From: Aliivibrio fischeri | GTDB lineage: Bacteria; Pseudomonadota; Gammaproteobacteria; Enterobacterales; Vibrionaceae | NCBI GenBank assembly: GCA_038993745.2 | Contig: CP160630.1 | Span: 1,054,001-1,118,000 of the forward strand | Direction of reading: 5' to 3' | DNA length: 64,000 nucleotides | In this document: positions 2,998 through 26,208 of the stretch, one piece after another | Position numbering within the stretch: position 1 is the first letter of the stretch | Layout: every line of letters begins with the position of its first letter | Notes under the pieces: generated by a model | Told to the model about the DNA's origin: nothing | What the model saw: the letters and a program-made list of their open reading frames with translations, nothing else | Database searches by the model: none | Position numbers and translations under genes: made by a program

Positions 2998-3004
2998 GGT
3001 TCAA

Positions 3005-3295
3005 ATGAGCTTTAAAGAACTTTTAAAACAAGACCAACACTTGGTCATTTTGCGATCATTGCTTGAAATGCCATCTTACGAAGCAAACGAATCTATTATT
3101 GATTCATGCCTAGATTGTTACGGCCACAATGTAAGCCGTGATACGGTTCGCACTCGTATCAGTTGGTTAGAAGAGCAAGAGTTAGTGACCACTCGTGAGT
3201 TAGCAGGTTGCATGATTGCTAAGTTAACTAGCCGTGGTGAAGATGTGGCAACAGGTCAAGCCGTTGTCCCTGGCGTAAAACGCCCACGAGCATAG
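3005..3295 (+). CDS. Mu gp26-like protein
   Basis: A 96-residue protein of the family that lies between gp25 and the small terminase in Mu-like phages. Residues 30-80 resemble a winged helix: NVSRDTVRTRISWLEEQELV followed by a beta-wing (TTRELAGCMIAKLTSRGEDVA). This suggests nucleic-acid binding, perhaps helping packaging. GAGG precedes the ATG. The placement is firm; the function is not known. Confidence 0.75.
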   Translation: MSFKELLKQDQHLVILRSLLEMPSYEANESIIDSCLDCYGHNVSRDTVRTRISWLEEQELVTTRELAGCMIAKLTSRGEDVATGQAVVPGVKRPRA

Positions 3296-3304
3296 GAGCA
3301 ACCA

Positions 3305-3889
3305 ATGACGATTACTGCACCTGTAAACCGAAAGTCTAAAATTTCGCTATTACCAGAAGAGATAAAGCAGCAATTAAACGTGCTTATTCGCTCTGGCAAT
3401 ATGCAGCAAAAAGACATACTCGCCGCTGTGCACGAAATGATTGACGAAGCAGGACTAGGTGAAGATGCCAAGCCAAGCCGTTCAAGCTTCAACCGCTACG
3501 CCAAGAAAATGGAAAACATGGGGGCACGTATTCGTCAGGCTCGTGAAGTGGCCGAAGTCTGGACAGCAAAACTTGGAGATGCCCCTACCTCAGAGTTAGG
3601 TAAGTTGCTGCAAGAGTTCGTTCGTACTATGGCGTTTGAAACATCATCGCACATGATGGAAGAATCAGAAGCTAACCAAGAGCCAATACCACCAAAGGCA
3701 TTAGCACAATTAGCATTGGTTATTCAACGTATCGAGCAATCATCAATGGTGTCTCATAAAGTTGAGCAAGAAATTCGTAAAGCCTTTGCTGAAGAGATGG
3801 TTGCAAAAACTGATCAAGTAGCTAAGAAAGCAGGACTAACGTCAGACACCGTGAAGATGTTGAAAGCCGAGCTACTAGGAATTTCATAA
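3305..3889 (+). CDS. DUF3486-family small terminase subunit (Mu gp27-like)
   Basis: A 194-residue protein with the DUF3486 pattern: RKSKISLLPEEIKQQLNVLI at the start, a helix-turn-helix-like segment (residues 40-75, ending SRSSFNRYAKKME) and a long helical C-terminal half. It is predicted to recognise the packaging site and recruit the large terminase encoded next, whose start overlaps its stop by 1 bp. The call rests on family pattern and on conserved order with gp26 and gp28. Confidence 0.88.
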   Translation: MTITAPVNRKSKISLLPEEIKQQLNVLIRSGNMQQKDILAAVHEMIDEAGLGEDAKPSRSSFNRYAKKMENMGARIRQAREVAEVWTAKLGDAPTSELGKLLQEFVRTMAFETSSHMMEESEANQEPIPPKALAQLALVIQRIEQSSMVSHKVEQEIRKAFAEEMVAKTDQVAKKAGLTSDTVKMLKAELLGIS

Positions 3890-5484
3890 TGACAGAATCA
3901 CTGAACGTCAATTCGATTACTGAAAACATCCTTGTCAAGTTCGACAAGGATGAGCTTTTACTTGGATATCAGAAACGTTGGATAGCCGATGAATCAGTGC
4001 TTAAGATTGCAGAGAAGTCACGTCGTACTGGTTTGACGTTTGCTGAAGCGGCAGATTCTGCGCTGAGTGCTGGCACTGCCAAAAGTGAAGGTGGAAATAA
4101 CGTCTTCTATGTTGGTTCGAACAAAGAAATGGCACGAGAGTTTATTGATGCTGTTGCTCTATGGGCCAAGATATTCGATAAAGCGGCTGGAGAAGTTCAA
4201 GAAGATATTCTCAACGATGAAGACAAAGACATTCTTACCTTTGTCATCTACTTTGAATCGGGTTTAAAGGTTCAGGCGTTATCGAGTAACCCTTCAAACC
4301 TTCGTGGTATGCAAGGAACGGTTATTATCGATGAGGCTGCATTTCACGAGCGATTAGCTGAAGTACTAAAAGCCGCCCTTGCATTAACCATGTGGGGTTC
4401 TAAAGTCCGTCTTATATCTACTCACAATGGTATAGACAATCAATTCAATCAGTTAATCCAAGATAGCCGAGCAGGTAAAAAGCGTTACTCAATCCATACC
4501 GTTACCCTTGATGATGCTTGTTTAGAGGGGCTCTATCAGCGAATTTGTCAGGTAACAAAGCAAGAATGGACTCAAGAAAAAGAAGATGAATGGAAGAGTA
4601 ATCTTCTCAAAGACACCGCAACTGAAGAAGATGCATTAGAAGAATATCAGTGTATACCAAAGAACGGCGGCGGTGCTTATATTAGTCGCGGATTACGTGA
4701 ACGAGCTGCACGTTTAACTGATGCACCAGTTTTATCCTTTACAGGAACGTCAGAGTTTAACCAAGCTAAAGAGCACATTCGTGAAGCCGAGATGAAAGAA
4801 TGGCTAGATGAACACGTTCAGCCAGAGCTTGATAAGTTGGATCCTAAACTTCGTCATTCACTAGGGGAAGATTTCGCGCGTTCTGGAGACTTAACTGTTT
4901 ATGCACCAATAGCGGTTCATAATGACACAACGCGAGAAGTTCCATTTTTATTAGAACTTGGTAACGTGCCATTCAAACAGCAAGAACAAGCCCTCTATTA
5001 TATATGTGATCAACTGCCTCGCCGTGATGGTATTTATCTCGATGCACGTGGTAACGGCCAATACTTAGCCGAGCAAGCAAGATACAAATACGGTGAAGAA
5101 GTAGTGGAAGTCATGTTGTCTGTGTCTTACTACCGTGAAAATATGCCATCGTTTAAAGCCGCTTTTGAAGACGACGAACTACTGCTACCAAAGCATGAAG
5201 ACGTCATTACCGACTTGGGACAAATACAAATCAAGGCCGGAGTGCCAAGTATTGATTCAAGCAGAACCAAAGGCGAAAACGGAAACAAACGACACGGCGA
5301 TAGTGCTATCGCTATTTGGTTTGCCTACTTAGCATCAAAGGCTGATATCACCCGTTACGGTCTACATACCATTAAAGCCGTTGGTGATGAAACAACGCGA
5401 TCCTTTTATGGAACAGCAGAAGACAACAACCGATTTGAAGATATGCCGCATCAAGACTTGCGCGGTAAAGGAATTAGACTATGA
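3889..5484 (+). CDS. Terminase large subunit (Mu gp28-like)
   Basis: A 531-residue packaging motor. Residues 39-55 carry a degenerate Walker A (KSRRTGLTFAEA), as in Mu gp28, and residues 145-152 the Walker B (VIIDEAAF). The C-terminal half holds the RNase H-like nuclease, with acidic positions in GEDFARSGDLT, IYLDARGNG and HGDSAIAIW. It drives headful DNA packaging into proheads and makes the cut in flanking host DNA. Length is normal for the family. The portal gene overlaps its end by 4 bp. Confidence 0.94.
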   Translation: MTESLNVNSITENILVKFDKDELLLGYQKRWIADESVLKIAEKSRRTGLTFAEAADSALSAGTAKSEGGNNVFYVGSNKEMAREFIDAVALWAKIFDKAAGEVQEDILNDEDKDILTFVIYFESGLKVQALSSNPSNLRGMQGTVIIDEAAFHERLAEVLKAALALTMWGSKVRLISTHNGIDNQFNQLIQDSRAGKKRYSIHTVTLDDACLEGLYQRICQVTKQEWTQEKEDEWKSNLLKDTATEEDALEEYQCIPKNGGGAYISRGLRERAARLTDAPVLSFTGTSEFNQAKEHIREAEMKEWLDEHVQPELDKLDPKLRHSLGEDFARSGDLTVYAPIAVHNDTTREVPFLLELGNVPFKQQEQALYYICDQLPRRDGIYLDARGNGQYLAEQARYKYGEEVVEVMLSVSYYRENMPSFKAAFEDDELLLPKHEDVITDLGQIQIKAGVPSIDSSRTKGENGNKRHGDSAIAIWFAYLASKADITRYGLHTIKAVGDETTRSFYGTAEDNNRFEDMPHQDLRGKGIRL

Positions 5485-7033
5485 CCGGAATTTTAGACGC
5501 ACAAGGTAAACCAATAAAAGCAGATAAAGCACTGCTGTCTGAAGATATTGCTAAAGCCTTCACCACCAGTGTAAGAAACCCACGCCCTTCAAGTGTGGCA
5601 TCAACAGTGACTCCTCAACGTTTGGCCGGATTACTTCGTGCAGTGATTGATGGCAACGACCCAGAAGCGTTCATGACATTAGCTGAAGAAATGGAAGAGC
5701 GTGATCTACATTACGCTGCGCAACTTCGTACCCGTAAATTAGCCGTCGCTGCTATTTCTCCAAGTGTAGAGCCATGCAGTGAAAGCGAACAAGACATGCT
5801 AATGGCAGAGCGCGTTCGTGAAGTGATGAATGATGATCAAATTCCAGAGTTGTTTTTTGATTTACTCGATGGACTTGGTAAAGGGTTAGCTGTTGTTCAA
5901 ATTCTTTGGAATACACAAAAGTCACCGTGGAAACCAAAAGATTACACATGGGTAGACCCAAGATATTTGCGCCAAGATAAAGACACGTTATCTAAAATTT
6001 TACTTATCAGTAATGACGCTCCAAGCGGTGAACCTTTAGAGCCTTATAAATTTATGGTTCATACCCCACGCTCGAAATCGGGCAGCGTATGGCGCAATGG
6101 CCTAGCTAGATTAGTTGCCGTGATGTACATGCTAAAGTCATTCACCATTCGTGATTGGTGGGCCTTTGCTGAAGTGTTCGGTATTCCAATTCGTGTGGGT
6201 AAGTATGGCGCGAACGCAAGTCCAGATGACATCAATACGCTAGTCAATGCCATTGGTCGTATTGCCAGTGATGCAGGTGCAGTTATTCCGGAATCCATGA
6301 AACTGGAGCTAATTGAAACCGCAAAAGGCAATGGCGGTAATACTCTATTTGAGAACATGGCACGTTGGTGTGATGAGCAAATAAGTAAAGCCGTGCTTGG
6401 TCAAACCATGACAGCCGACAATGGCAGCTCACAATCACAAGCCACTGTTCATAACGAAGTGCGTTTAGATATTGCAAAATGGGACGCAAGACAACTAGAA
6501 GCGTGCGTTAACGAATACCTGGTTAAGCCTTACATTATTCTTAATTGGGGTGTACAAGACTGTTACCAAAAGTGCGCATCAAAGTTCATGAGCCAGAAGA
6601 TCTAAAAGTCTTTGTTGACTCTTTAACACCAATGATTGATCGCGGCGTTCGTGTGACTGAAGATTCAATCTTAAATAAGTTCGGACTAAAAGCGGCAGAA
6701 GATAGCGAACGAGTACTTCATCCCGTTAACCAAGTTCAAACCCCAACCCCAACAGAGTTAGGGTTAAACCGTCGCCTTGCTATTAACCAAGTAAGCAAAA
6801 CGGTAGATAAAGAAATTGAAGACATGACAAACGAAGCCATGAAAGATTGGGTAGAAACCGCAGAGGATTTCATGAACCCAATCTTATCATTGGCAAATTC
6901 TGTCGATACCTTTGAAGAGTTCAACGCCAAGTTACCGCAACTTCAAGAAGAACTAGGTGCAGACGCGTTCGTCGCAGCTATGACGGAGTATATGTTTAAA
7001 GCAAGAGGATTGGGAGACGCGAAAGATGCCTAA
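5481..7033 (+). pseudogene. Portal protein, DUF935 / Mu gp29-like, split by one frameshift
   Basis: The first frame gives about 360 residues of the DUF935 portal family (RLAGLLRAVIDGNDPEAFM, DWWAFAEVFGIPIRVGKYG). It then runs out near 6566, and the rest continues in the next frame as KVRIKVHEPEDLK to the stop at 7033. Restoring one C in the CC at 6566-6567 gives DCYPKVRIKV and a single 517-residue protein, matching Mu gp29. The portal is the ring through which DNA enters the head. The neighbours on both sides are intact and overlapping, so this is probably a base-calling error; a real mutation would disable the phage. Confidence 0.9.
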
Positions 7034-7808
7034 TGAAAGCGTGATCTCAAAAGAAGCATTAGCATGGTTTAAAAAGAAAGGCATAGAGCCTTCTTTTGAT
7101 TACCGTGACGTGTGGGAAGAAGAGCACGCAAACGCCTTCACCGTAGCAAAAATGCTCAATGCTGATTTGCTTGTCGAAGTAAAAGGGTTAATCGATGAAG
7201 CCATAGAGCAAGGCCAAACCTTTGTACAGTTCCGCGACATACTAAAACCACTGTTAGTAAAATCCGGTTGGTGGGGCATTCAAGAAATGGATGACCCAAC
7301 CACCAAAGAAACAAAGCTCGTTCAATTAGGCAGTGAAGGACGTATAAAAACCATTTACAAAACCAACATGAGAACAGCAAGAGCTGCTGGGCAATGGGAA
7401 CGAATAGAACGAACAAAACGAGCTATGCCCTATTTGCTTTATCAGCTAGGCCCATCTCTTGAGCATAGACTTGAGCATGTTAAATGGAATGGAATATTGC
7501 TGCCAGTGGGTGATGAGTTTTGGATTAACCATATGCCCCCAAATGGATGGGGGTGTAATTGTTGGATAAGGCAGGTATCAAAGTTTGAAGCCGATAAACT
7601 TATCCAGGATAAAAAAGTAACAACCACTGCACCACCAGATAAAACTAAGAAGTGGGTAAACAAAAGAACAGGAGAAGAAACCACCTTACCAGTAGGAATT
7701 GATCCAGGTTGGAACTACAATCCTGGTAAAGAGCGAGAAAAAGCACTTTCTCTAGACCTAGTTCAAAAAGAGACGTTAATGCGTCAAACGCTCTCTAAGG
7801 GCGTTTAA
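7026..7808 (+). CDS. Phage Mu F-like minor head protein (gp30-like)
   Basis: A 260-residue protein with the SPP1 gp7 / Mu gpF head-morphogenesis domain in residues 100-200. Markers are IKTIYKTNMRTARAAGQWER, LEHRLEHVKWNG and the HMPPNGWGCNCWIRQ segment. It is thought to be a minor capsid or portal-associated protein injected with DNA or needed for head assembly. It is shorter than Mu gp30 (over 400 residues), ending soon after the conserved domain without an obvious frameshift. It overlaps the portal gene by 8 bp and is the last gene before an intrinsic terminator. Confidence 0.87.
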   Translation: MPNESVISKEALAWFKKKGIEPSFDYRDVWEEEHANAFTVAKMLNADLLVEVKGLIDEAIEQGQTFVQFRDILKPLLVKSGWWGIQEMDDPTTKETKLVQLGSEGRIKTIYKTNMRTARAAGQWERIERTKRAMPYLLYQLGPSLEHRLEHVKWNGILLPVGDEFWINHMPPNGWGCNCWIRQVSKFEADKLIQDKKVTTTAPPDKTKKWVNKRTGEETTLPVGIDPGWNYNPGKEREKALSLDLVQKETLMRQTLSKGV

Positions 7809-7898
7809 AATGAAATTAAGATAATCACGAGATAAAAAAAGTTTAAACGCGCTCAGTTAAATTTAAACAGTGTTTAAATGCGGTTTTATAATGTATTT

Positions 7899-7937
7899 AG
7901 GTTAGCAGTTGTCTTTCAGCTTGCTAACCTGATTTTT
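7899..7937 (+). terminator. Intrinsic terminator after the F-like head gene
   Basis: Arms AGGTTAGCA (7899-7907) and TGCTAACCT (7922-7930) are a perfect 9-bp stem followed by GATTTTTAT. It ends the packaging/portal unit, so the protease-head-tail genes need their own promoter in the following 170 bases. Confidence 0.85.
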
Positions 7938-8111
7938 ATCTGTAATCTATAAAGCCTTCCCCTTCGCAATACCTAATCCAAAACTCACCTATTTTAATCA
8001 ATCGATGTTATTCACAATGTCTTCGCACGTCGGTGCATTATGAACTCCTACCAAGAAACATATCAATCAACCACAAGGAGATTGCTATGTAACGGTCAAT
8101 TTATGGAGTAA
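7938..8111 (+). promoter_or_regulatory. Leader before the protease gene, with a start-stop mini-ORF
   Basis: The gap 7809-8114 contains no gene. Upstream of the terminator are three TTTAAA-centred repeats, GTTTAAAC, ATTTAAAC and GTTTAAAT, between 7838 and 7878. After the terminator, a strong AAGGAG (8075-8080) precedes ATG at 8087 that is followed at once by TAA. A second ATG (8103) is followed by GAG and TAA (8109-8111). The true protease ATG is at 8115. In Mu the late promoter PI lies at this place. No clear -10/-35 pair was identified, as expected for an activator-dependent late promoter. Confidence 0.5.
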
Positions 8112-8114
8112 GTA

Positions 8115-9083
8115 ATGAGTCGCAAATTATATACCGCCCTTTGCTTTAGTCTTTCCAATACGGTTTCACCAGAAGGCCTTTGGCTTCCTATGATTCCTGC
8201 TGGAAATTTTTCAGGTATTGATAAGCGTTCTTGGACAAACTCAAACCCTGATGCCGTTGTTGCTGCGTTTCAAAAAAAATTGCCTTTTGATATCGAGCAC
8301 TCAACACATATCAAAGCACCAAACGGTGACCCTGCGCCTGCTGTCGGTTGGATTGTAGAGTTACAAAACCGTAATGGCGAAGTGTATGGAAAAGTTGAAT
8401 GGAACAGCGAAGGCCACGAGTTAATTGAAGAAAAGAAATACGCTTATTATTCGCCATCGTTCACTTACGATGAAAATGGAACTGTCATCGAGTTGGCAAG
8501 TTCTGGTTTAACTAACAGCCCTAATTTAAATGTACCAGCCTTAAATAGAATAGAGGACGAAGACATGAAGTTTTCTCAAGCAATCGTTGCGGCCCTGTCG
8601 CTATCAGCAGAAGCAACAGAAGATCAAGTGTTGACTGCTATCAACTCCCTTAAGTCAGAAAAGCAAGTCGCATTAAACAGTGCGCAGCATCCAGATTTAA
8701 CCAAGTTTGTTCCAGTTGAAACACATAACGTTGCGCTTAACCGTGCTGAAACCGCCGAAGGTAAATTAAAAGCAGTTGAAGATGCTGAGATTGAAGCATT
8801 AGTTGATAGTGCGATTGCCGACGGAAAAGTAGCGCCTGCAAATAAAGATATGTTTGTTGGTATGTGTCGTTCTGAAGGTGGTAAAGAGCAATTCGCCAAG
8901 TTCGTAGCTACTGCGTCTGCGGTTGTCTCTGATAAAGAAGACAAAAAACCAAACCTTGCAACTAACAGCAAGTTGGATAAAGAAGAGCTTGCGTTATGCC
9001 GCAAGATGAATTTAACCGAAGATGAATTCCTTAAATCAAAGGAAAGCATCGCGGCTTACAATGAACAGAATAAGGACGCGTAA
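8115..9083 (+). CDS. Mu gpI-like prohead protease with scaffold domain
   Basis: A 322-residue protein equivalent to Mu gpI. The N-terminal 150 residues form the protease (PAGNFSGIDKRSW, FDIEHSTHIKAPNGDPAPAVGWI, then YYSPSFT and LTNSPNLN), with His and Ser in positions typical of phage prohead peptidases. Residues 151-322 are helical, charged scaffold. The protease trims scaffold and capsid during head maturation. GGAG ends six bases before the ATG. The internal start for the scaffold alone is listed separately. The major head gene follows after 2 bp. Confidence 0.9.
   Translation: MSRKLYTALCFSLSNTVSPEGLWLPMIPAGNFSGIDKRSWTNSNPDAVVAAFQKKLPFDIEHSTHIKAPNGDPAPAVGWIVELQNRNGEVYGKVEWNSEGHELIEEKKYAYYSPSFTYDENGTVIELASSGLTNSPNLNVPALNRIEDEDMKFSQAIVAALSLSAEATEDQVLTAINSLKSEKQVALNSAQHPDLTKFVPVETHNVALNRAETAEGKLKAVEDAEIEALVDSAIADGKVAPANKDMFVGMCRSEGGKEQFAKFVATASAVVSDKEDKKPNLATNSKLDKEELALCRKMNLTEDEFLKSKESIAAYNEQNKDA
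8565..9083 (+). CDS. Nested scaffold protein (Mu gpZ-like), internal in-frame start
   Basis: An ATG at 8565 lies in the frame of the protease gene at codon 151. It is preceded by GAGG at 8553-8556 with eight-base spacing, which is far better than chance within coding sequence. It would produce a 172-residue scaffold beginning MKFSQAIVAAL, separate from the protease. In Mu, gene Z is nested within I in exactly this way, which is why the call is made. The product is expected to fill the prohead during assembly and be removed by gpI. Confidence 0.75.
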   Translation: MKFSQAIVAALSLSAEATEDQVLTAINSLKSEKQVALNSAQHPDLTKFVPVETHNVALNRAETAEGKLKAVEDAEIEALVDSAIADGKVAPANKDMFVGMCRSEGGKEQFAKFVATASAVVSDKEDKKPNLATNSKLDKEELALCRKMNLTEDEFLKSKESIAAYNEQNKDA

Positions 9084-9085
9084 TC

Positions 9086-9982
9086 ATGGCGACTGAAGCT
9101 CAAATTATTGAAGCACTATTTGTATCTATGAACGCTGCATATGTGAAAGGTGTTTCACGTGCACAGCCTCAATGGGACAAAATCGCAACCGAAGTTCCAT
9201 CATCGGGTGCATCAAACTTTTACGGTTGGCTAAAAGACTTACCAGAGATTAAAGAATGGGTTGGCGATCGTCAGCTTGCTGATGTGGGTAAACATGGTTA
9301 TGCCATCACCAACAAAACGTTTGAAAGTTCTATCTCTATCAGTCGTGAAAATGTTGAAGACGACCAAATCGGTCAGTACTCAGTATTAGCAGAGCGTTTT
9401 GGTGACCAAGTTACCATGTTCCCTGATAAGTTAGCGTACCCACTATTGGTAGCTGGCTTCACAACATTGTGTTACGACGGCCAAAACTACTTTGATACGG
9501 ACCACCCATTAGATACTACACCAGCATCGACGTTCTCAAACGTAGTCGGCGACCCATCTACGGATACAGGTTCACCTTGGTTCTTGATTGATAACTCTCA
9601 AACGCTAAAGCCGATTGTGTATCAAACCCGTCGTCCATTCGTGTTTAAGAACATGAACCCGACAGAAGAATACACCTGGTTCAACAACAAATTTGCAGCA
9701 GGTACAGATGGCCGTTGTGAAGTTGGTTTCTCATTCCCTCAATTAGCGATTGGTTCTAAAGCTGCGCTAACTGAAGCGAACTATGAGCTTGCGGTTAAAC
9801 AACTTGGTGGCATGAAGCGTGCGGATGGTACACCACTTGGCGTGCGACCAACGACATTGGTGGTTGGTTACGCTAACCGTGCAGCGGCTAAGAAGTTAAT
9901 CGATCGAATGCTGATTGAAGGTGGCGATACCAATATCTACTACCAGGATGTGGAAGTTGTGGTTTCACCATTCATCGCATAA
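9086..9982 (+). CDS. Major head protein (Mu gpT-like)
   Basis: A 298-residue protein of the Mu gpT capsid family (PF10124 type). Markers are QWDKIATEVPSSGASNFYGWL near the start, LPEIKEWVGDRQLAD, and the C-terminal LVVGYANRAAAKKLIDRMLIEGG...NIYYQDVEVVVSPF. It forms the icosahedral shell. The gene is intact, follows the protease/scaffold gene by 2 bp and is of normal length. A small stem-loop lies just after it. Confidence 0.93.
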   Translation: MATEAQIIEALFVSMNAAYVKGVSRAQPQWDKIATEVPSSGASNFYGWLKDLPEIKEWVGDRQLADVGKHGYAITNKTFESSISISRENVEDDQIGQYSVLAERFGDQVTMFPDKLAYPLLVAGFTTLCYDGQNYFDTDHPLDTTPASTFSNVVGDPSTDTGSPWFLIDNSQTLKPIVYQTRRPFVFKNMNPTEEYTWFNNKFAAGTDGRCEVGFSFPQLAIGSKAALTEANYELAVKQLGGMKRADGTPLGVRPTTLVVGYANRAAAKKLIDRMLIEGGDTNIYYQDVEVVVSPFIA

Positions 9983-9991
9983 TCAACTCAT

Positions 9992-10015
9992 TATGGCGGT
10001 CTCAGTGCCGCCATA
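9992..10015 (+). other. Stem-loop after the major head gene
   Basis: TATGGCGG (9992-9999) pairs perfectly with CCGCCATA (10008-10015) around an 8-base loop. There is no T-run, so it is more likely an mRNA-stabilising or partial attenuation hairpin in the leader of the next gene than a terminator. Confidence 0.6.
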
Positions 10016-10032
10016 TTTAAAGGAACAAGGCC

Positions 10033-10317
10033 ATGACAGTTAAAGTTAATCTAAACCCAGATACATGGACTCTTATTTCTTCTGCGGCTGTTGGATACAT
10101 GGATAACCAATCGGGCAGCGTGGTTAAGTATCGACTTGAAGATTTCGCACCAGATGATGCCGAAATATGGGGGCATCAACTAAAGCTTGAAAAAGGCATC
10201 GGGTGGTCACTATCAACGCCGAAAAACATTTACGGAAGAACATCCGGCTCTATCGGTGACGTAATAGTAACGGAAGCCGATAATGTCTGGGGATCTCATG
10301 ATCTTTTTGTGAATTAA
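10033..10317 (+). CDS. Small phage protein between capsid and gp35; function unknown
   Basis: A 94-residue acidic protein with alternating hydrophobic residues suggesting beta structure (WTLISSAAVGYMDNQSG, VVKYRLEDFAP, GSIGDVIVTEADNVW). AAAGGAAC precedes the ATG. Its position after the major head gene is where some Mu relatives encode a head-decoration or minor head protein, and beta-rich small proteins fit that, but I see no diagnostic motif. Not recognised by family. Confidence 0.65.
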   Translation: MTVKVNLNPDTWTLISSAAVGYMDNQSGSVVKYRLEDFAPDDAEIWGHQLKLEKGIGWSLSTPKNIYGRTSGSIGDVIVTEADNVWGSHDLFVN

Positions 10318-10362
10318 ACCCTGATTAATCCCTCTTTATATTGTGTTTAAAAGGAGCTTACT

Positions 10363-10944
10363 GTGAGTGAAGCATCTAAAAAGAAAACCACAAATAAGTC
10401 TAAAACGAAAAAGACAAAGGCTAGTGCAAGCACAAAGCCAGTTCAAGATGGTGATGCCATCAAAACAACGCAAGCCGAACAGAAGCAAACCAAGTCAGAA
10501 GTGGCTGCGTTAACGGGTCACTATCAAGTGCCAATCGCGCCAACAAGTGGTTCTGTAGTTGAAAAAGGAAATGGTAAAGATGGTGATTTGGAAACTGGAA
10601 ATGAAGTGGAAACACAATTGGTCAGCAATTCTGAAAGCAACAATGAGCTTTTTGGGCTTCTTGATCGCAAAACCGATATCGAAGTGCTTGGCGCTATGGA
10701 AGTCAGCTCGCGTTCAGACAATGGCTTCTGGCGCAGCGGTGTTCATTTTTCTCGCCTTGAGAAAACAGTGGTTATTGTTGTCAGCGATGATGACATTAAA
10801 AACCCTGAGTTATCTCAAAGTGGACTTGGTATTGAAAGCGCGTTTCCTGTGGTGTTTATGGCACCATCACAAGCGAAAAGAGTACACGATGAGCCTCACT
10901 TAAATGTTGACGTTCTAGAACTTGAATCCTTGATTGGAGAATAA
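10363..10944 (+). CDS. Mu gp35-like head-tail region protein
   Basis: A 193-residue protein starting with GTG after AAAAGGAG. The first 100 residues are Lys/Thr/Ser-rich and probably disordered. Residues 105-190 resemble the FluMu N-terminal / HI1506-type domain found in Mu gp35 relatives (MEVSSRSDNGFWRSGVHFSRLEKTVVIV). Its exact role is unknown; it lies between capsid and head-completion genes. The long basic leader is unusual and may reflect interaction with packaged DNA (inference). Confidence 0.7.
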   Translation: MSEASKKKTTNKSKTKKTKASASTKPVQDGDAIKTTQAEQKQTKSEVAALTGHYQVPIAPTSGSVVEKGNGKDGDLETGNEVETQLVSNSESNNELFGLLDRKTDIEVLGAMEVSSRSDNGFWRSGVHFSRLEKTVVIVVSDDDIKNPELSQSGLGIESAFPVVFMAPSQAKRVHDEPHLNVDVLELESLIGE

Positions 10945-10946
10945 GC

Positions 10947-11381
10947 ATGGCTATCTACGCAACCAAGCAAGATTTAATAGACCGTGATGAACAAATGCTT
11001 TGGAACGTTGCGATTGATAGAGCAACAGACCAATTGAATGACACTGCAATCGAGCAGGCGTTGGAGCAAGCAGACGAAGAGATCGATTCTTTTATCGGTC
11101 GTCGATATGTCCTTCCTCTTCCAACCGTGCCAGGCATGTTAAACAAAGTCGCAATGACTATCGCGTTTTACTGGTTATCAGACCGTGACCAACAAGCCAC
11201 TGAATTAGTAGAAAAACGTTATGAAATGGCATTAACCACATTACGTGAAATTGCGAATGGTAAACGTGAGCTTGGCCTTCCAACGGTAGACACACCAGAA
11301 GAAGGAAGCGTAGGTAAAGTAGAGCTTGTTCAAACTAACGAGCGATTATTTACCAGAAACACATTGCGAGGCGTTCTGTAA
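10947..11381 (+). CDS. DUF1320 head-tail completion protein (Mu gp36-like)
   Basis: A 144-residue protein opening MAIYATKQDLIDRDEQMLWN, with the family's helical pattern (ALEQADEEIDSFIGRRYVLPLP, VAMTIAFYWLSDR). DUF1320 proteins occupy the gp36 place in Mu-like phages and resemble head-tail adaptors of the gp6/gp15 fold. The gene starts 2 bp after gp35 and overlaps the next start by 1 bp, so the three are translated together. Confidence 0.88.
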   Translation: MAIYATKQDLIDRDEQMLWNVAIDRATDQLNDTAIEQALEQADEEIDSFIGRRYVLPLPTVPGMLNKVAMTIAFYWLSDRDQQATELVEKRYEMALTTLREIANGKRELGLPTVDTPEEGSVGKVELVQTNERLFTRNTLRGVL

Positions 11382-11923
11382 TGGGTATTAGCGTTCAGGT
11401 TACTGGAGCAGAAGAGCTTGAGCGCTATCAACGCTTGGTTGATACCTTATCTGATTCGAAACATAAAGATGAATTACTCGATAGCCTTGGTGCCATCGTT
11501 GAAAGCCAAACAAGACGACGCATTGCGGATGAAAAAACCGCACCAGATGGTACTGCATGGCAAGCATGGTCAAGCGGTTATGAAAAGACCAGGCATGGTA
11601 ATCAATCTTTACTGCAAGGAGAAGGCGATTTATTAGATTCAATCCAATACATCGTTGAGAAAAACCAAGTCAGAATTGGTTCACCTCTGCCCTATGCAGG
11701 CGTTCATCAAGATGGGTTTTCAGGTCAGGTTCAAGTTGATGCTCACACTAGGCTCATTACTCAAGCGTTTGGTAAAGCGTTAGCATTTCCTGTTTATCAA
11801 TCCGTTGCAGCATTTAGCCGACAAATGGAAATACCACAACGTCAGTTCTTAGGGCTTAGTAGCGACAACCAAACCGAAGTCTTTGCGGTTATCGGTGACT
11901 TTTGGAAGGAAGTAATGGCATGA
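11381..11923 (+). CDS. Phage virion morphogenesis protein (Mu gpG-like)
   Basis: A 180-residue protein of the phage virion morphogenesis / tail completion family. It shows SQTRRRIADEKTAPDGTAWQAW, LLQGEGDLLDSI and VRIGSPLPYAGVHQDG, followed near the C-terminus by IPQRQFLGLS, the usual family signature. It is needed to join or complete the tail. In Mu the G gene lies before gp36; here it follows it, as in several Mu-like prophages. It overlaps the next gene by 4 bp (ATGA). Confidence 0.88.
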   Translation: MGISVQVTGAEELERYQRLVDTLSDSKHKDELLDSLGAIVESQTRRRIADEKTAPDGTAWQAWSSGYEKTRHGNQSLLQGEGDLLDSIQYIVEKNQVRIGSPLPYAGVHQDGFSGQVQVDAHTRLITQAFGKALAFPVYQSVAAFSRQMEIPQRQFLGLSSDNQTEVFAVIGDFWKEVMA

Positions 11924-12534
11924 CAACATCAAGACCCAGTTTACAAACGCTTGGTTCTACCGTATGGGCAAGCGAACAAGTGGTTTCTTATCTTAAGACC
12001 AAGCTTGAAGGTGGAAAGAACGACGTAGACAAAGTTCAAAGTGTTGAACGTCATATCGGAAAGTTCGATAAACCAGATGAAGTAAAGCGTTGGATGGGAA
12101 ATCGTGATGGTGGTATTCGTGTTGCGGCTGTTCGTATTCCAAAGATAGAGAACATCGGCTCAGAACTAATCGGAACCATTAACTTTGCAGCCTATGTGTT
12201 CATGACCGACATGTGGGGATATTCAAAAGACGTACGTGCTGAAGTCGTCACGGCCAAAGTAGCTCAAGCAATCATGAGCCGAGGATGGCACAAAACCTAC
12301 AACGCAAAATCAACGGCGTTAGATGTAAGAGCCGATAATTTATATAGCGGAAAAATTGATGAATTAGGTGTATCTATTTGGGTGGTGACATGGACACAAG
12401 ATTGGCGTCTCGATGTGGAGATTAATCTTGATGATCTAGACCCATTCCTAACGTTTGATTTTAAAGCCCCAATTGCTGATGGTGCACCAGTGCTAGAAGC
12501 AGAGATTCAATTACCACAGGATCCACAACCATGA
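11920..12534 (+). CDS. DUF1834 protein (Mu gp37-like)
   Basis: About 204 residues from the ATG at 11920, chosen because it overlaps the preceding stop as ATGA and follows GGAAGG; a TTG at 11902 is less likely. The family pattern includes GGIRVAAVRIPKIENIGSE, NFAAYVFMTDMWGYSKD and the WVVTWTQDWRLD segment. DUF1834 proteins resemble tail terminators that cap the sheath and tube, and the gene lies immediately upstream of the sheath gene. The precise role is inferred from position. Confidence 0.8.
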   Translation: MTTSRPSLQTLGSTVWASEQVVSYLKTKLEGGKNDVDKVQSVERHIGKFDKPDEVKRWMGNRDGGIRVAAVRIPKIENIGSELIGTINFAAYVFMTDMWGYSKDVRAEVVTAKVAQAIMSRGWHKTYNAKSTALDVRADNLYSGKIDELGVSIWVVTWTQDWRLDVEINLDDLDPFLTFDFKAPIADGAPVLEAEIQLPQDPQP

Positions 12535-12740
12535 TGATTACTGTAAAACCTAAAAAAGAAGACGTTCTTGTTCGTAAGCCTGACGGAACGCACCTAGACA
12601 AAAAAGGCGAAAAAGTAAAGCGCACTGCTTTTTGGGTTCGCCGTATTAATGATGGTGATGTTATCCGCGTTGAAGCCGAAGAGCACAAAGCCAAAGAAGC
12701 GAAAGCTAAGGCAAGCACTAAAGATAAAGGAGACAAATAA
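12531..12740 (+). CDS. DUF2635 protein (Mu gp38-like)
   Basis: A 69-residue protein of the DUF2635 family, with VRKPDGTHLDKKGEKVKRTAFWVRRINDGDVIR. The C-terminus is a highly charged Lys/Glu/Ala tail. It always sits just before the sheath gene in Mu-like phages, and here overlaps both neighbours (4 bp upstream, 1 bp downstream). No biochemical role is known to me. Confidence 0.85.
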   Translation: MMITVKPKKEDVLVRKPDGTHLDKKGEKVKRTAFWVRRINDGDVIRVEAEEHKAKEAKAKASTKDKGDK

Positions 12741-14218
12741 TGTCACTAGGTTCTATCCCCAATGATATTCGCGTTCCTCTGGTTTATATCGATATTGATA
12801 ACAGCCAGGCACTAAGCGGAACGCCAGCGCAAGCACAAAAGATTTTGGTGATTGGTCAGCAATTATCAGGCGCAGCAGCAACGCCGTTAACCCTAGAGCG
12901 CATCACTACGAGCGAAAGCCGTTGGGACGAGTTATACGGAAAAGGCTCAATGATGGCTCTTATGCTTAAAAAGCTGCGTAAGGCTAACTTCTCTACCGAT
13001 GTTTACGCTCTTGGTGTTGCTGATTTAACCGCAGGAACGCAAGCAAAAGCAGAGTTAACTATTACTGCATCCAATGCAAAAGCAGGTGTGATCGCTTTAT
13101 TAGTGGCTGGTCAATCGGTTCAAGTAGCAGTTAAAGACGATAACACCGCTGCTGAAATTGCTACTGCTGTTATCGCAAAGGTCACTGAGCTAACAAACCT
13201 TCCTGTTTCAGCTGCACTAAAATCAGGTGAAACAGAAGTCGTTGAATTTACTTGTAAGCACAAAGGCGTAACGGGTAATGACTTAGATATTCGCTATAAC
13301 TACTATGATGGTGAAGTGCTTCCTCAAGGTGTCACACTGGTTAAAACGGCATTTACAGGTGGTGCAGGCACACCAGATATGGCGTCCATTGTCGCCGCTA
13401 TTCCTGATGAATGGTACAACCACGTGGTCAACCCATACAACGACACTCAAAGCATGAACGACTTGCGTGATGAATTAGTCGAGCGTTGGGGTCCACTTAA
13501 AATGATTGAAGGTATTGCCTATACCGCTTTTCGTGGCACGTTTGCTGAATCGGGATCTTACGGCCAAGCACGTAATGATTTCTTATTTAGCTGTATGGGA
13601 ACCAATGCCGCACCTAACCCAACATGGGAATGGGCAGCAAGTTATGCAGGTATTGCCTCATACAACTTAGCGATTGACCCAGCGCGTCCGCTGCAAACGT
13701 TAATCTTGCCAAGTTTATTACCACCGCAAAAAGAAGTGGTTTGGGATTTAACCGAGCGCAACCTTCTACTTAAAGATGGCATTGCAACGTATACCGTCAC
13801 ACCGGGTGGACAAGTCGCCATTGAGCGTGAAATCTCAATGTACCGTGAAAACATTTACGGTGACCCAGACCCAAGCTATTTAGATATTACTACGCCTGCA
13901 ACATTGGGCTACTTACGTTACTCGATGCGTACCATGGTAACCAACCGTTACCCACGCCATAAGTTAGCAAATGATGATGTTCTGCCACAGTTAGATCCTG
14001 CTCAACCCGTGGTAACACCAAAGCTAATGCGTTTAGCTATTTTAGACTTAGCTCAGCAATGGGTAACGCAAGGTCTGATTGAAGATTACGATCTCTTTGC
14101 GGAAACCTTAGAAGTGTATCGTGATGCGAATGATAAGAACCGCTTGAACTGCGTAGCGCATCCAGACATCGTGAATCAGTTACGAATCTTTGCAGCACTG
14201 TTTCAATTTAAACTTTAG
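12740..14218 (+). CDS. Contractile tail sheath protein (Mu gpL-like)
   Basis: A 492-residue sheath protein. It begins MSLGSIPNDIRVPLVYIDIDNSQA, has a central Gly/Ala/Val-rich insertion domain (about 100-215), and ends with the conserved C-terminal sheath domain (LGYLRYSMRTMVTNRYPRHKLA, ending RIFAALFQFKL). It wraps the tail tube and contracts during DNA injection. Length is normal and the frame is intact. The tube gene follows after 13 bp. Confidence 0.94.
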   Translation: MSLGSIPNDIRVPLVYIDIDNSQALSGTPAQAQKILVIGQQLSGAAATPLTLERITTSESRWDELYGKGSMMALMLKKLRKANFSTDVYALGVADLTAGTQAKAELTITASNAKAGVIALLVAGQSVQVAVKDDNTAAEIATAVIAKVTELTNLPVSAALKSGETEVVEFTCKHKGVTGNDLDIRYNYYDGEVLPQGVTLVKTAFTGGAGTPDMASIVAAIPDEWYNHVVNPYNDTQSMNDLRDELVERWGPLKMIEGIAYTAFRGTFAESGSYGQARNDFLFSCMGTNAAPNPTWEWAASYAGIASYNLAIDPARPLQTLILPSLLPPQKEVVWDLTERNLLLKDGIATYTVTPGGQVAIEREISMYRENIYGDPDPSYLDITTPATLGYLRYSMRTMVTNRYPRHKLANDDVLPQLDPAQPVVTPKLMRLAILDLAQQWVTQGLIEDYDLFAETLEVYRDANDKNRLNCVAHPDIVNQLRIFAALFQFKL

Positions 14219-14231
14219 GAAGGAATAAATT

Positions 14232-14585
14232 ATGGGAGCGATTCTTGGCGAAGTGGTTGTTCGTGCTAACGGCAAGCAATTCAAAACGAAGAAAGGTTCA
14301 CAACTTAACCCAGGTGGTTACACGCGAACCTCACATGTTGGCCCTAGTCGTGTATGGGGTCAATCAAAAGAGTACACAGTACCAACCATTACGATGGTGA
14401 TTGCGGCGGATGAAGATGTCGATGTACTTGAAATTAATGCGATCGAATTTGCTACGTTAACGTGGGAAGGCGATAACGGCGTTGATTACATGATGACAGA
14501 CGCAGCACCACAAGGACCAGCCACATTGTCCGACTCAGGTGACATCAATGTCGTATTCCAAGGTAATAAAGTGAGTAAAACCTAA
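14232..14585 (+). CDS. Tail tube protein (Mu gpM / gp40-like)
   Basis: A 117-residue protein starting MGAILGEVVVRANGKQFKTKKGSQLNPGG, the pattern of the Mu tail tube family (PF10618 type). It is beta-rich, as expected for hexameric ring subunits stacked inside the sheath. It overlaps the next gene's start by 1 bp, linking synthesis of tube and chaperone. GGAAGGAATAAATT precedes the ATG. Confidence 0.9.
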   Translation: MGAILGEVVVRANGKQFKTKKGSQLNPGGYTRTSHVGPSRVWGQSKEYTVPTITMVIAADEDVDVLEINAIEFATLTWEGDNGVDYMMTDAAPQGPATLSDSGDINVVFQGNKVSKT

Positions 14586-14941
14586 TGGCATTAATGACGT
14601 TTGAACTAAAAGACGGCTTCAAGGTGGGTGATGATATCCACACTGAAGTGGGGTTAAAAGAGCTAAGCAGTGGTGATTTGATTGATGCTCAAATGGCTGC
14701 CGAAAAAATCATTATTCATGATGGAACGCCAGTCGCTTATACCTCTGATGTGCTTTATGGATTAGAAATGCTTGTTCGCCAAATTGAATACATCGGTAAT
14801 GTTCAAGGTCCATTTCAAATCAAAGAGCTTCGTAAGTTATCACCAGGTGACTTGAATGAAATTCAAAAGCAATCAAGCAACCTAGATAAATTATTAATGA
14901 AGGAGTTTGAACAGCGGGGGCGATCTAACGGCGCTTCCTGA
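14585..14941 (+). CDS. Tail assembly chaperone, short form (Mu gp41-like)
   Basis: A 118-residue protein of the Mu gp41 / tail assembly chaperone E family (MTFELKDGFKVGDDIHTEVGLKELSSGDLIDA). It is predicted to coat the tape measure protein during tail assembly. Near its end the frame passes through GGGGGCGA, where a fraction of ribosomes should shift to make the longer gp41-gp42 fusion. The zero-frame product ends at TGA 14939-14941. Confidence 0.85.
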   Translation: MALMTFELKDGFKVGDDIHTEVGLKELSSGDLIDAQMAAEKIIIHDGTPVAYTSDVLYGLEMLVRQIEYIGNVQGPFQIKELRKLSPGDLNEIQKQSSNLDKLLMKEFEQRGRSNGAS

Positions 14942-15065
14942 TATTTGCCAAAATCTGCTGCTCGCCATGAGTGGCAGATTTCCAGTAAGTGCCTTATCTC
15001 CCCTTCCAATTCGTCGGTTATTGAAGTTGTATTATCAGCTTAAGGAACTTCAGAATGTCCAATAA
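14585..15065 (+). CDS. gp41-gp42 fusion made by programmed -2 frameshift
   Basis: Downstream of the gp41 frame, a different frame is open without any ATG and gives a well-formed peptide: GDLTALPDICQNLLLAMSG, then RFPVSALSPLPIRRLLKLYY and QLKELQNVQ. It stops at 15063-15065, overlapping the tape measure start at 15055. The two frames meet if a ribosome on GGG at 14918-14920 slips back two bases to GGG at 14916-14918. Tail chaperone pairs made by frameshifting are conserved in long-tailed phages, and I recall a -2 shift on the same octamer in Mu itself. The gap 14942-15054 is therefore coding. Confidence 0.85.
14916..14923 (+). promoter_or_regulatory. Recoding (slippery) site GGGGGCGA
   Basis: Five G residues followed by CGA, placed seven codons before the zero-frame stop of gp41. 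The gp42 reading frame is reached only by a -2 (or +1) shift here: the -1 frame hits TAA at 14926. Re-pairing of GGG with GGG after a 2-base backward slip is perfect. Confidence 0.85.
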
Positions 15066-16782
15066 ACTAGTTACCGATATTGTTCTTAATCTCGCGGGTA
15101 ACCTTTCTCAAAAAGCAAAACAATACGGCGCGAACATGTCGGAGTTCGCAAAGAAAAACGAGCGAGCCATGAGTCTTGTCAAAAAATCATCCGAAGCCGC
15201 AGGTCGTGGTATTGACTCATTAGGTAATCGTTATATGGGGCTTGCTAGTACGGTTGTTGCAGGAACGGCGGTTAAGAACGTTGCTGCATTTGATGCACAA
15301 ATGACTCGTATCGGAACGAATGCGATGTTACGTGCTGAACAAGTCGATATGTTAACCGCTTCCATTCAAGAGATGTCAAATCAAAAAGATATTCGTGTAG
15401 CAACAACTGATTTAGCCACAGGGGTTGATGAGCTGTTAGCCAAGACTGGTGATCTAGAGTTTGTAAATGACAACCTTGAAAACATGGGTTTGTTCATGCA
15501 AGCGTTCGGGGCCGATGCAAAATCTACCGCAGCTATCTTTGCTCAGTTTCGTGAGAAAGGCGTTAAATCGTCAACCGATGTAATGAACACCATTGATGAA
15601 TTATACGGTCAGTTTGCCGTTGGTAGCGTTAACGTAAGTGACTTAGCTAACGTATCAGAGCAATTATTCTCTGTGTATCAAGGAAAAGGACCACAAGCCA
15701 TTTCACAAATGGCAGGGTTGGTTCAACTGTTTGCTAAAACAAAAGGCAGTGCCGATGAATCAGTAACATCTATCGAGGCGGTATTCTCAGCGTTTCAAGA
15801 TAAAAAGAAAGTCGAGTTTTTAGATCAACAAGGTATCGAAGTGTTCAAGAAAGGAACCAAAGAACTGAGAGAGCCTATTGAATTATTAATGGAGATTTTA
15901 GATAAAGCTGAAAATGATCCTATGAAGTTAGGCGATGTGTTTGATGGCACCGCAATTAGCGGATTAACGTCTCTATATTCAGAAGAAAACAAACAGCTAT
16001 TAATGAAGATGACGTCAGGTACTGCCGAATTAGGCGCAACGCAAAAAGCAGCAGCTACTAACGCCGCCACGTTTAACAGTGCAATGGCATCAATGAATAA
16101 CACCTTCAATGAAATAGCCAATGACAAGCTTGCTCCACCCATCCAAGACATTGCAGATGCGATAAACAGCGTAGACAGCGAAACCATTGATGATTGGCTT
16201 AAGTGGGGTGAAACCGCTGTCATCGCTATTGGTGGCATTATTGCAGCAAAGAAAGGAATGGACTTTGTAAATACCACTCGTGACTTTTTCGGCAAAGGTG
16301 GTAAAGGCGGTTCTGGTGCAGGCGGAATGCAAGACTTAGGCGCAATGCCTGTTTATGTTGTGAATATGCCAGGTGGTGGTATGGGTGGCGGTGCTGTTGG
16401 TGGTTCAGGTAATGGTCCAACACCAAATCAACCGAGATCTAAAACATCAAGCCTGATTAAATCAGGTGCTGCGAATTTACTTTCTGGTGCGATTCTTTAT
16501 CAAGCTGGAGAATCAATTGCAACGGGTGTTCAAGAGTTTAGCCCTTTTGATGTACGTCGTAAGAGTAGCGTCGATACTTCACAACTTCCTGAAAACTTCC
16601 CTGTATCAGCAGGATTACTTGATGTGTTAGATGATATCAAAGGATTCTTTGGAGGTTCATCATCGACGACTGGTGGTGCAAATATTGGTTTGGATATTAA
16701 AGTTTCTGATGATCGTATCCAAGTGACTCAATCTGCAAGTTCTCCAACTATTGCCATAAATCTTGATAATGGTCGAAATTAA
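15055..16782 (+). CDS. Tail tape measure protein (Mu gp42/TMP type)
   Basis: A 575-residue tail length-determining protein in the TP901 tape measure family (residues 60-350, e.g. TRIGTNAMLRAEQVDMLTAS, FAQFREKGVKSSTDVMNTI). A helical core is followed by a Gly-rich linker (about 420-470, GGKGGSGAGGMQ...GGGMGGGAVGGSG) and a short C-terminal domain. It sets tail length and is threaded through the tube. It is somewhat short for a myovirus, predicting a short tail. It overlaps the gp41-42 frame by 11 bp. Confidence 0.9.
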   Translation: MSNKLVTDIVLNLAGNLSQKAKQYGANMSEFAKKNERAMSLVKKSSEAAGRGIDSLGNRYMGLASTVVAGTAVKNVAAFDAQMTRIGTNAMLRAEQVDMLTASIQEMSNQKDIRVATTDLATGVDELLAKTGDLEFVNDNLENMGLFMQAFGADAKSTAAIFAQFREKGVKSSTDVMNTIDELYGQFAVGSVNVSDLANVSEQLFSVYQGKGPQAISQMAGLVQLFAKTKGSADESVTSIEAVFSAFQDKKKVEFLDQQGIEVFKKGTKELREPIELLMEILDKAENDPMKLGDVFDGTAISGLTSLYSEENKQLLMKMTSGTAELGATQKAAATNAATFNSAMASMNNTFNEIANDKLAPPIQDIADAINSVDSETIDDWLKWGETAVIAIGGIIAAKKGMDFVNTTRDFFGKGGKGGSGAGGMQDLGAMPVYVVNMPGGGMGGGAVGGSGNGPTPNQPRSKTSSLIKSGAANLLSGAILYQAGESIATGVQEFSPFDVRRKSSVDTSQLPENFPVSAGLLDVLDDIKGFFGGSSSTTGGANIGLDIKVSDDRIQVTQSASSPTIAINLDNGRN

Positions 16783-24446: not shown

Positions 24447-26000
24447 GTGATCGTCATGCCACAAACTCCAAAAGAGACTGATATAAAAGGGAAAAAATTA
24501 AAGTCTAGTATATACATATCTACTTTTAGCAATCGAACTCTGCTAATCAACAATGTTAATAAGTTGATGATAAATGAAAAACAAAATAGCTTTATTTGTT
24601 TTTCCACACTGGAATCATTCACGAAATCATTGAATGATAAGTTTATACATTTATTTAAATCCACTTTAAATAAATATTGTGAAAACATATTTTTCGCAAA
24701 AAATAAAAGCATTACCTCATTGATATCATTAACTAATGACATTACAAGATTGCAAACTAAAAAACATAGCACCATAACAATTACGATCCCAGACAACATT
24801 TTTACAACAAAAAGTGAGTCAGATGTTATATTCTTTATAAAAAAGCTAAACGAATGGTCAATTAAAACCACGTCTACAATAAACTTGTTTGTTTATGGTC
24901 GAGATACACACTTAATAAAAAAATCAATTACACAAAATCCTAATCTTTGTGTTGGTTACGCTAATTACCAAAGCATTGATAAAAATACGTATTTAGAGCA
25001 CGTATATTATTGGGGATTAAATACAGGAATGAATGGAGAAAGCGAAACCTACCATTCACTCCACAACAATAGCGCAACAAATTACAACATAAAACATCCG
25101 CATTCATTATCATCATCAGCTAATCTTGACGATGAAGATACTGTTTATATTGCAAAAACCGCCATTGAATACGGTAATAAAATACCCGACACCATGATCT
25201 GTGCCTCTACAAATGTTGAACTAGTCAACAGTCTAACTAGCGTGTCAAAGGCTGCTATTGTATTAAGTTGCTCAGAGCAAAATGATGTATCTGAATTAGG
25301 TATGCAGGCGTTTCAATTACGTCAACGATATGGACAACAGATCAAAATCATTATTAAAGAGATGAAACCATGCCTACGTTACGCTGATGAAATGTATTTA
25401 CTGCAAGCAGGCATTAACCTAATTGTTCATTTTGGAACTCGTTTTTCTAGAATGCAAAGCGGTATTGAGATGTTAAAGGGCCAAATATTCACTCGCCCGT
25501 TACCGAGCTCTATTGAAGAATTACTAAGCTTTCATGTTGAAACTATCGCCGTTAAGGGCTTTGTTGATTTCAATAGTTTTATCTACTATACCAAAACCTT
25601 CTTATCACAATTAGAAACGTCACAAACACAATTTGCGTTAATCAAACTCGAACGTCTTCCAAATATTAAAATCGCGAATTATCTATCAATGTGTAGTATC
25701 CAAAGAGAAGGGGATATTATGACCATCACTAATAACTCTATGTACCTGTTTTTACAAGGAGTCCGCATTAATGATCTTGCGACGGCACTACACAATATTT
25801 TTAAATTGCCAATTCAAGATATCTTCATTAGTGAAACGAGTTTGACCTCAATAGGTAGAATTGAGCATGAGTTACATCATATTGAACAAAATGGCCTTAC
25901 TATCGACAATATAACTTTAATCGAAAATAAAGAAAAAGAGCCATTATCAGCAATCCCACAACAAGCATCTCTTGCTGTACATAAACCGTTGGATTTTTAA
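24447..26000 (+). CDS. bcsE: BcsE, c-di-GMP-binding cellulose regulator
   Basis: A 517-residue protein (GTG at 24447; ATG at 24456 would remove three residues). BcsE boosts cellulose production by binding c-di-GMP through a degenerate GGDEF-like (GIL) domain and recruiting BcsF and BcsG. The C-terminal part contains IQREGDIMTI near residue 425, whose REGD corresponds to the RxGD c-di-GMP-binding I-site. The N-terminal 220 residues are poorly conserved, as in other BcsE proteins; the middle (residues 240-340) is the better conserved REC-like region. It is the first gene of bcsEFG and appears intact. Confidence 0.88.
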   Translation: MIVMPQTPKETDIKGKKLKSSIYISTFSNRTLLINNVNKLMINEKQNSFICFSTLESFTKSLNDKFIHLFKSTLNKYCENIFFAKNKSITSLISLTNDITRLQTKKHSTITITIPDNIFTTKSESDVIFFIKKLNEWSIKTTSTINLFVYGRDTHLIKKSITQNPNLCVGYANYQSIDKNTYLEHVYYWGLNTGMNGESETYHSLHNNSATNYNIKHPHSLSSSANLDDEDTVYIAKTAIEYGNKIPDTMICASTNVELVNSLTSVSKAAIVLSCSEQNDVSELGMQAFQLRQRYGQQIKIIIKEMKPCLRYADEMYLLQAGINLIVHFGTRFSRMQSGIEMLKGQIFTRPLPSSIEELLSFHVETIAVKGFVDFNSFIYYTKTFLSQLETSQTQFALIKLERLPNIKIANYLSMCSIQREGDIMTITNNSMYLFLQGVRINDLATALHNIFKLPIQDIFISETSLTSIGRIEHELHHIEQNGLTIDNITLIENKEKEPLSAIPQQASLAVHKPLDF

Positions 26001-26004
26001 TATT

Positions 26005-26208
26005 ATGAATATTCAAGACTTTATTATTACTGCTGTGTTCAGTGGTCTAATTGGCCTTATTATTGGCTATTTTTTACGTGATATTATTTCATTTTTTTGG
26101 CGATTTTACACAACGAAAATCCGCCAACCAAAGCATCTCGTCCAATATCATTTTGAAGATATACAAACGCATTCCTCTCAGCTCGCAAGAAAAGGAAGCT
26201 CAAAATAA
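26005..26208 (+). CDS. bcsF: BcsF, small inner-membrane cellulose protein
   Basis: A 67-residue protein with one N-terminal transmembrane helix (MNIQDFIITAVFSGLIGLII) and a basic cytoplasmic tail (SFFWRFYTTKIRQPKHL). BcsF links BcsE to BcsG in the membrane. The start at 26005 is chosen over an upstream ATG at 25972 inside bcsE, since it restores normal family length. Its stop overlaps the bcsG ATG by 1 bp. Confidence 0.85.
   Translation: MNIQDFIITAVFSGLIGLIIGYFLRDIISFFWRFYTTKIRQPKHLVQYHFEDIQTHSSQLARKGSSK

Follow-up and report, generated by a model that had tools for sequence, protein, structure and literature searches.

In a Mu-like prophage of Aliivibrio fischeri, translation of the tail assembly chaperone gene very probably involves a two-base backward slip of the ribosome shortly before the gene ends, a conclusion as to slippage and its -2 direction that we draw from the sequence. 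With good confidence, we hold that the locus is best explained by a programmed -2 frameshift in gp41, helped by a Shine-Dalgarno (SD)-like element upstream and a stem-loop downstream of the slip site. The -2 slip of Mu is already known; as far as our literature search reached, what is new is the surroundings of the slip site, namely the SD-like element and the stem-loop, both of which were absent from the original prediction made on this DNA. We thus read the locus as a variant of a recoding signal that is already known, presumably stimulated here by the flanking elements. The features concerned, within the 64,000-nucleotide stretch that was analyzed (the window), are the following:

14232..14585, forward strand: tail tube protein gene (PF10618, E=2.6e-35; phrog_185), adjoining gp41 on its upstream side
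14585..14941, forward strand: gp41-type tail assembly chaperone gene (G-like, zero-frame product of 118 aa; PF23746 Gp41_Mu, PF10109, phrog_508)
14900..14905, forward strand: AAGGAG, SD-like element inside gp41, separated from the octamer by 10 nt; its duplex with the anti-SD core has a calculated energy of -8.3 kcal/mol
14916..14923, forward strand: slip site GG GGG CGA (GGGGGCGA), same octamer and register as in Mu
14924..14929, forward strand: 6-nt spacer between the slip site and the predicted stem-loop
14930..14993, forward strand: predicted stem-loop (outer stem 14930-14936/14987-14993 and 14938-14940/14983-14985; inner hairpin 14951-14963/14969-14981)
14919..15065, forward strand: -2 frame extension (T-like domain), an open frame that would be read from GGC at 14919 after the slip
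15055..16782, forward strand: tape measure protein gene (phrog_973, tail length tape measure, E=1.1e-100), its start overlapped by the end of the extension

The chaperone gene belongs to a Mu-like contractile-tail module that comprises sheath (12740-14218), tube (14232-14585), chaperone (14585-14941) and tape measure (15055-16782) genes, and it sits between those for the tail tube and the tape measure. Its product carries the Gp41_Mu domain (PF23746, E=2e-36, 124.8 bits versus a cut-off of 27), and phrog_508, which it also matches, is a tail assembly chaperone family. A second frame, +1/-2 relative to gp41, is open from stop to stop over 14901-15065; the extension that it encodes from 14919 matches phrog_10716 and phrog_38797, both of unknown function, and ends at the start of the tape measure gene, its stop codon (15063-15065) falling within the tape-measure ORF. 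The predicted fusion of gp41 and the extension measures 160 aa.

The zero-frame codons at the slip site are CGG GGG CGA, with TCT following the octamer, so that a P-site GGG (14918-14920) can re-pair on the GGG at 14916-14918, the GGG-to-GGG register of a Mu-kind -2 frameshift. Several elements of the original prediction hold up: the octamer GGGGGCGA does occupy 14916-14923, close to the gp41 stop and in the register required, the second frame reaches just inside the tape measure gene (it is open to 15065), and the -1 frame closes at once, with a stop at 14926. Contrary to that prediction, the second frame does not lack a start codon: an in-frame ATG occurs at 14967-14969, although this codon is ATG in only 24 of the 101 representative loci described below. 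In addition, the proposed -2 frameshift stands for the chaperone gp41 and its extension, but not the naming of the latter as gp42, which in Mu is the tape-measure protein; the D108 record calls the extension 41.5.

The octamer alone is unremarkable, with one match in the 64 kb and at least one match in 37 of 100 shuffles, while the pattern AAGGAG-N8-12-GGGGGCGA, picked after the sequence was seen, arose in 0 of 100. When the window is compared to a relative from the same genus (L008), the 36 extension codons show 8 synonymous and 2 nonsynonymous differences, and base differences at codon positions 1, 2 and 3 number 1, 1 and 9; the extension frame thus looks to be under selection. The idea that CGA is a rare codon proved false for the window, where it accounts for 19% of Arg codons (CGG and AGG together, 6%).

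The contig contains a near-identical chaperone region about 50 kb upstream; neither its octamer nor its SD-like element or stem has changed, and its five differences from 14585-15065 fall at 14707, 14728, 14758, 15050 and 15051. This second Mu-like element is probably a prophage (G000:C2, about 1004726-1018639, compared with window 2000-15065); ungapped comparison of these stretches gives 98-99% similarity as far as the chaperone and greater divergence in the tape measure. No second copy was found at positions 26000-27500 of the window.

The study behind the -2 frameshift of Mu gp41 is reportedly that of Xu, Hendrix and Duda in 2004. Mu gp41 has the same gene family, position, octamer, register, offset and end near the tape-measure start as the gene described here. 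Indeed, the -2 frame read in Mu (L023, L024) ends at locus base 2490, which is the end of the frameshift product in GenBank AF083977, a record that labels this product 'verified -2' and refers to PMID 15469818. Since both octamer and offset match those of Mu and the record calls the Mu shift verified, the slip site itself is already known; the original statement that Mu has the same octamer was right, and the offset is shared as well. Mu is cited as a -2 case in PMC5009743, PMC3498833, PMC2628397 and PMC4378225, with a low efficiency of about 2.2% (PMC3498833), and programmed -2 frameshifting is described as seldom reported (PMC5009743). Excerpts on other Mu-like phages mention a gp41 domain in KS10, for which the authors found no slip site (PMC2628397), and a putative -1 site in Pseudomonas phages (PMC4378225). 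We inspected 11 of the 24 phage records with a match; 10 are annotated, and the extension is shown in two of them, AF083977 (as frameshift product) and D108 (as ORF 41.5).

A comparison with Mu and Mu-like prophages, proposed as a check in the original prediction, extends the shared octamer and frame offset beyond Mu itself. Loci were gathered mainly through the tail-sheath protein (best 80 per list), the gp41 protein alignment having offered no conserved stretch as a query, and were thus not chosen by octamer. From 413 sources, some of which are repeat fetches of one contig, 330 had gp41 by HMM and yielded 231 unique regions; GGGGGCGA is in frame in 165 of these mostly sheath-chosen regions, although the HMM was seeded from 15 octamer-bearing sequences and may favour such sequences. 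Among the sheath-chosen genome loci (best 80 of 133), 58 of 80 had gp41, and 41 of those 58 the octamer. The 165 octamer regions were reduced to 101 representatives at less than 85% nucleotide identity, including the window; these share ancestry, so that the p-values given below overstate independence. The -2/+1 frame is open for at least 40 codons from the octamer in all 101 representatives, and the -1 frame in four.

We relied on this octamer-anchored count in place of a rule based on the longest extension, which is crude and labels the 165 octamer regions as -2/+1 (159), -1/+2 (2) or none (4). Frames were classified in 230 regions, L219 being cut at a contig end; the other 65 comprise six with NGG GGG CGC or CGT, 26 with other codons before GGG CGA and 33 with neither. 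The longest-extension rule assigns -1/+2 to 10 of the 26 GG-less GGG-CGA regions, because both frames are open there, and to 24 of the 33; of these 24, 22 remain once L042, with its in-frame fusion, and L129, with its broken extension, are removed, and many of the 22 contain a run of the -1 type (GGGAAAG, for example). L129 had been a candidate for a switch to -1 and was rejected, its extension beginning in the -2/+1 frame and being broken farther on. Mapped onto a FastTree phylogeny of 89 sheath rows, the GGG-CGA class that lacks GG requires at least 3 changes and the whole set at least 19, counts that are a rough guide since sheath and chaperone genes may have reassorted. No clear instance emerged of the contrary case named in the original prediction, loss of the octamer together with a separate start for the extension: most relatives without the octamer have a different G-rich site, and one locus (L232) is ambiguous.

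The SD-like element recurs at a fixed place. Anti-SD pairing, by a nearest-neighbour score, peaks at a single register, 12 nt from the first G of the octamer to the base opposite the anti-SD centre, where 74 of 101 representatives score at or below -2. The next-best register, one codon farther upstream, reaches 35, and all the others between 3 and 65 nt stay at 31 or fewer; at distances within 3 nt, it is the octamer that pairs. The host genome contains 15 matches to the anti-SD sequence GGCTGGATCACCTCCTTA, taken to be 16S 3' ends. Over the 101 representatives, the mean duplex energy is -7.5 kcal/mol compared to -5.1 for synonymous recodings, with a control segment farther upstream at -3.0 against a null of -3.3; for the 34 representatives below 55% aa identity, the mean is -8.4 versus -5.1 kcal/mol, the synonymous null being beaten by the element in 30 of 34 and by the control segment in 12 of 34. 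Codon choice shows the same trend, with GAG:GAA at 60:8 in the element's two codons versus 28:51 at eight nearby codons, and AAG:AAA at 16:2 versus 16:21. Taken one locus at a time, the test reached p 0.05 in only 12 of 101 (window, p 0.11), and the SD is weak in 21 of 101.

Downstream of the slip site, the predicted fold of 14924-15000 has an energy of -29.2 kcal/mol (z -5.0 versus dinucleotide shuffles), and none of 200 shuffles was as stable. With this null, z falls below -2 in 42 of 101 representatives; with a null that preserves the amino acids of the extension, though not those of the few overlapping gp41 codons, it does so in 53 and fails to in 48, the control segment being slightly negative (mean z -0.6, 12 of 101 below -2). 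In the clade of the window, 20 of the 21 representatives in the alignment lie below -2 with the latter null (mean z -4.4; window, -4.1). For covariation, 42 sequences with at least 50% gp41 identity gave 35 distinct ones, from which L154 was dropped for a deletion and L002 replaced by the window, identical there, leaving a gapless alignment of 34. Here the outer stem 14930-14936/14987-14993 is the best 6-bp register tested (mean 85% paired versus 39% over registers), and its covariation score is 0.295, compared to 0.208 (sd 0.012) when shuffled and 0.07-0.15 for slid controls. RNAalifold returned no consensus structure for the 34 sequences, since the inner hairpin differs among members.

The two elements could also be by-products of coding constraint and codon usage around a slip site that is itself real. 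This would fit the small number of loci in which the SD is individually significant, the missing RNAalifold consensus, and SD and stem strengths that are uncorrelated across the 101 representatives (rho -0.07, p 0.46). Mu, moreover, works with neither element: its SD-like energy is -1.7 versus -8.3 kcal/mol in the window, its downstream structure is not unusually stable (z -0.1 versus -5.0 to -6.1 here), and among eight hand-picked Mu-type representatives the SD is weak (above -4) in all eight and the stem strong in one. We nevertheless regard this explanation as unlikely, for the synonymous nulls are beaten collectively while the controls stay near the null (SD) or only slightly below it (stem), the SD has a sharply defined register, at 12 nt, and the outer-stem pairs covary.

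The arrangement is reminiscent of the -1 signal of E. coli dnaX, which, in the excerpts of PMC5600365 and PMC3711429, has the same three-part layout of upstream SD, slip site and stem-loop. In the window, the SD-like element lies 10 nt from the slip site, within the 8-11 nt of the dnaX type, and the predicted stem-loop follows after 6 nt. The slip sites differ, dnaX having an X_XXY_YYZ heptamer with a -1 shift and the gp41 gene GG_GGG_CGA with a probable -2 shift and a -1 frame that is closed by the stop at 14926, and the genes are not homologous. The lambda G/GT type is likewise a chaperone with a frameshifted extension before the tape measure (excerpt of PMC5009743), but there the shift is -1. 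The +1 site of prfB shares an internal SD and the same net frame; its SD, however, lies 3 nt upstream of CTTT at a TGA stop, in a description that includes no downstream stem (excerpt of PMC12421855), whereas here the distance is 10 nt and the site is GGGGGCGA followed by TCT. According to an excerpt of PMC6321510, an SD 8-11 nt upstream stimulates -1 shifting, and downstream structure stimulates -1 and attenuates +1 shifting. The layout of SD and stem is thus of the backward type and, even without reference to Mu, favours -2 over +1, with the caveat that this literature concerns -1 and +1 sites and its application to a -2 site is an extrapolation.

The same frame would also be entered if the P-site tRNA slipped +1, from GGG to GGC, with two pairs retained. 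Such a shift could accommodate the 26 of 197 unique in-frame GGG-CGN regions that have GAG, AAG, CAG or TCG before GGG CGA, where -2 re-pairing would be imperfect. The remaining 171 have GG before GGG (NGG), which is needed for -2 re-pairing and not for +1. In the 165 octamer regions the preceding codon is CGG (153), AGG (10), GGG (1) or TGG (1), and this variation in the first base indicates that it is GG that is conserved, and not only an Arg. Together with the identity of the octamer to that of Mu, annotated as verified -2, and with the position of SD and stem, this makes +1 slippage decidedly improbable. The two shifts predict tryptic junction peptides that differ by 57 Da: GGDLTALPDICQNLLLAMSGR, with two Gly (RGGDLT...), for -2, and the lighter GDLTALPDICQNLLLAMSGR, with one Gly (RGDLT...), for +1. 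One locus, L130 (CGG GGA GAG), might have served as natural evidence against +1, but its CCT TGA end is another possible +1 site and we place no reliance on it.

Separate translation of the extension, whether ribosomes reinitiate or start at the ATG within it (14967), seems to us very improbable. An ATG is indeed missing from the first 20 extension codons in only 29 of 101 representatives, and ATG, GTG and TTG are all missing in only 11, but none of these starts keeps a constant position (the codon of the window's ATG is ATG in 24 of 101, and 25 share the commonest ATG position). In addition, the window's ATG is at the hairpin tip in the predicted fold, AAGGAG is 61 nt away from it, and the octamer and the frame are conserved upstream of any ATG. 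Slippage of RNA polymerase on the G run is scarcely credible: in L042 the run is one G shorter and both parts share one frame, so that a transcript minus one G would encode the fusion, but five Gs are a short run for such slippage, and the conservation of CGA, SD register and stem would be left unexplained.

Other arrangements occur among the relatives. In Photorhabdus, Xenorhabdus, Gilliamella and Leminorella, among others, 21 unique regions have GAG (or AAG) GGG CGA followed directly by a stop (including L059-L064, L068, L070-L072, L181-L183, L272, L273 and L287). Their extension, judged by eye, is in the -2/+1 frame, with the -1 frame also open in some; -2 re-pairing would have to fall on AGG. 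The Marinomonas prophage L042, in which one G fewer (about base 6163) places chaperone and extension in a single frame, has either lost the short form naturally or been misassembled. At the gp41 end of the metagenomic L232 there are six Gs, an extension in the -1 frame and an ATG overlapping the stop, an ambiguous case of changed shift direction or homopolymer error. In more distant sheath-related loci (L069, L085, L088, L090, L229, L303, L382 and L398), the -1 frame of the chaperone gene is open, and several of them contain -1-type runs (GGGAAAG, GGGGGAAG); both shift directions thus seem to occur within one tail-module lineage.

Under a programmed -2 frameshift, a ribosome translating gp41 would pause when its P site contains tRNA-Gly on GGG (14918-14920) and its A site CGA. 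AAGGAG, behind the ribosome, would pair with 16S rRNA and pull the mRNA back, and the stem-loop ahead would resist forward movement; the peptidyl-tRNA could then re-pair two bases upstream, on GGG 14916-14918, and decoding would resume at GGC GAT CTA. Most ribosomes would produce the 118-aa G-like chaperone and a minority the 160-aa GT-like fusion; the analogy with lambda and Mu suggests that the added domain of the latter may help to start tail-tube polymerization on the tape measure.

The excerpts covered by our literature search (including PMC10885494, PMC5600365, PMC3711429 and PMC8541194) yielded neither an SD nor a stem-loop for the Mu -2 site and, apart from Mu, no bacterial -2 case described as tested. 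We lean towards the view that many Mu-type chaperone genes use a full dnaX-like cassette for a two-base backward slip, Mu being a stripped-down outlier, and that the stimulators are general for backward slipping while the slip sequence alone picks -2 over -1. If this is true, a natural -2 family with conserved stimulators would provide a tractable system for asking why two bases are slipped and not one, and G:GT ratios would be predicted to differ among Mu-like phages.
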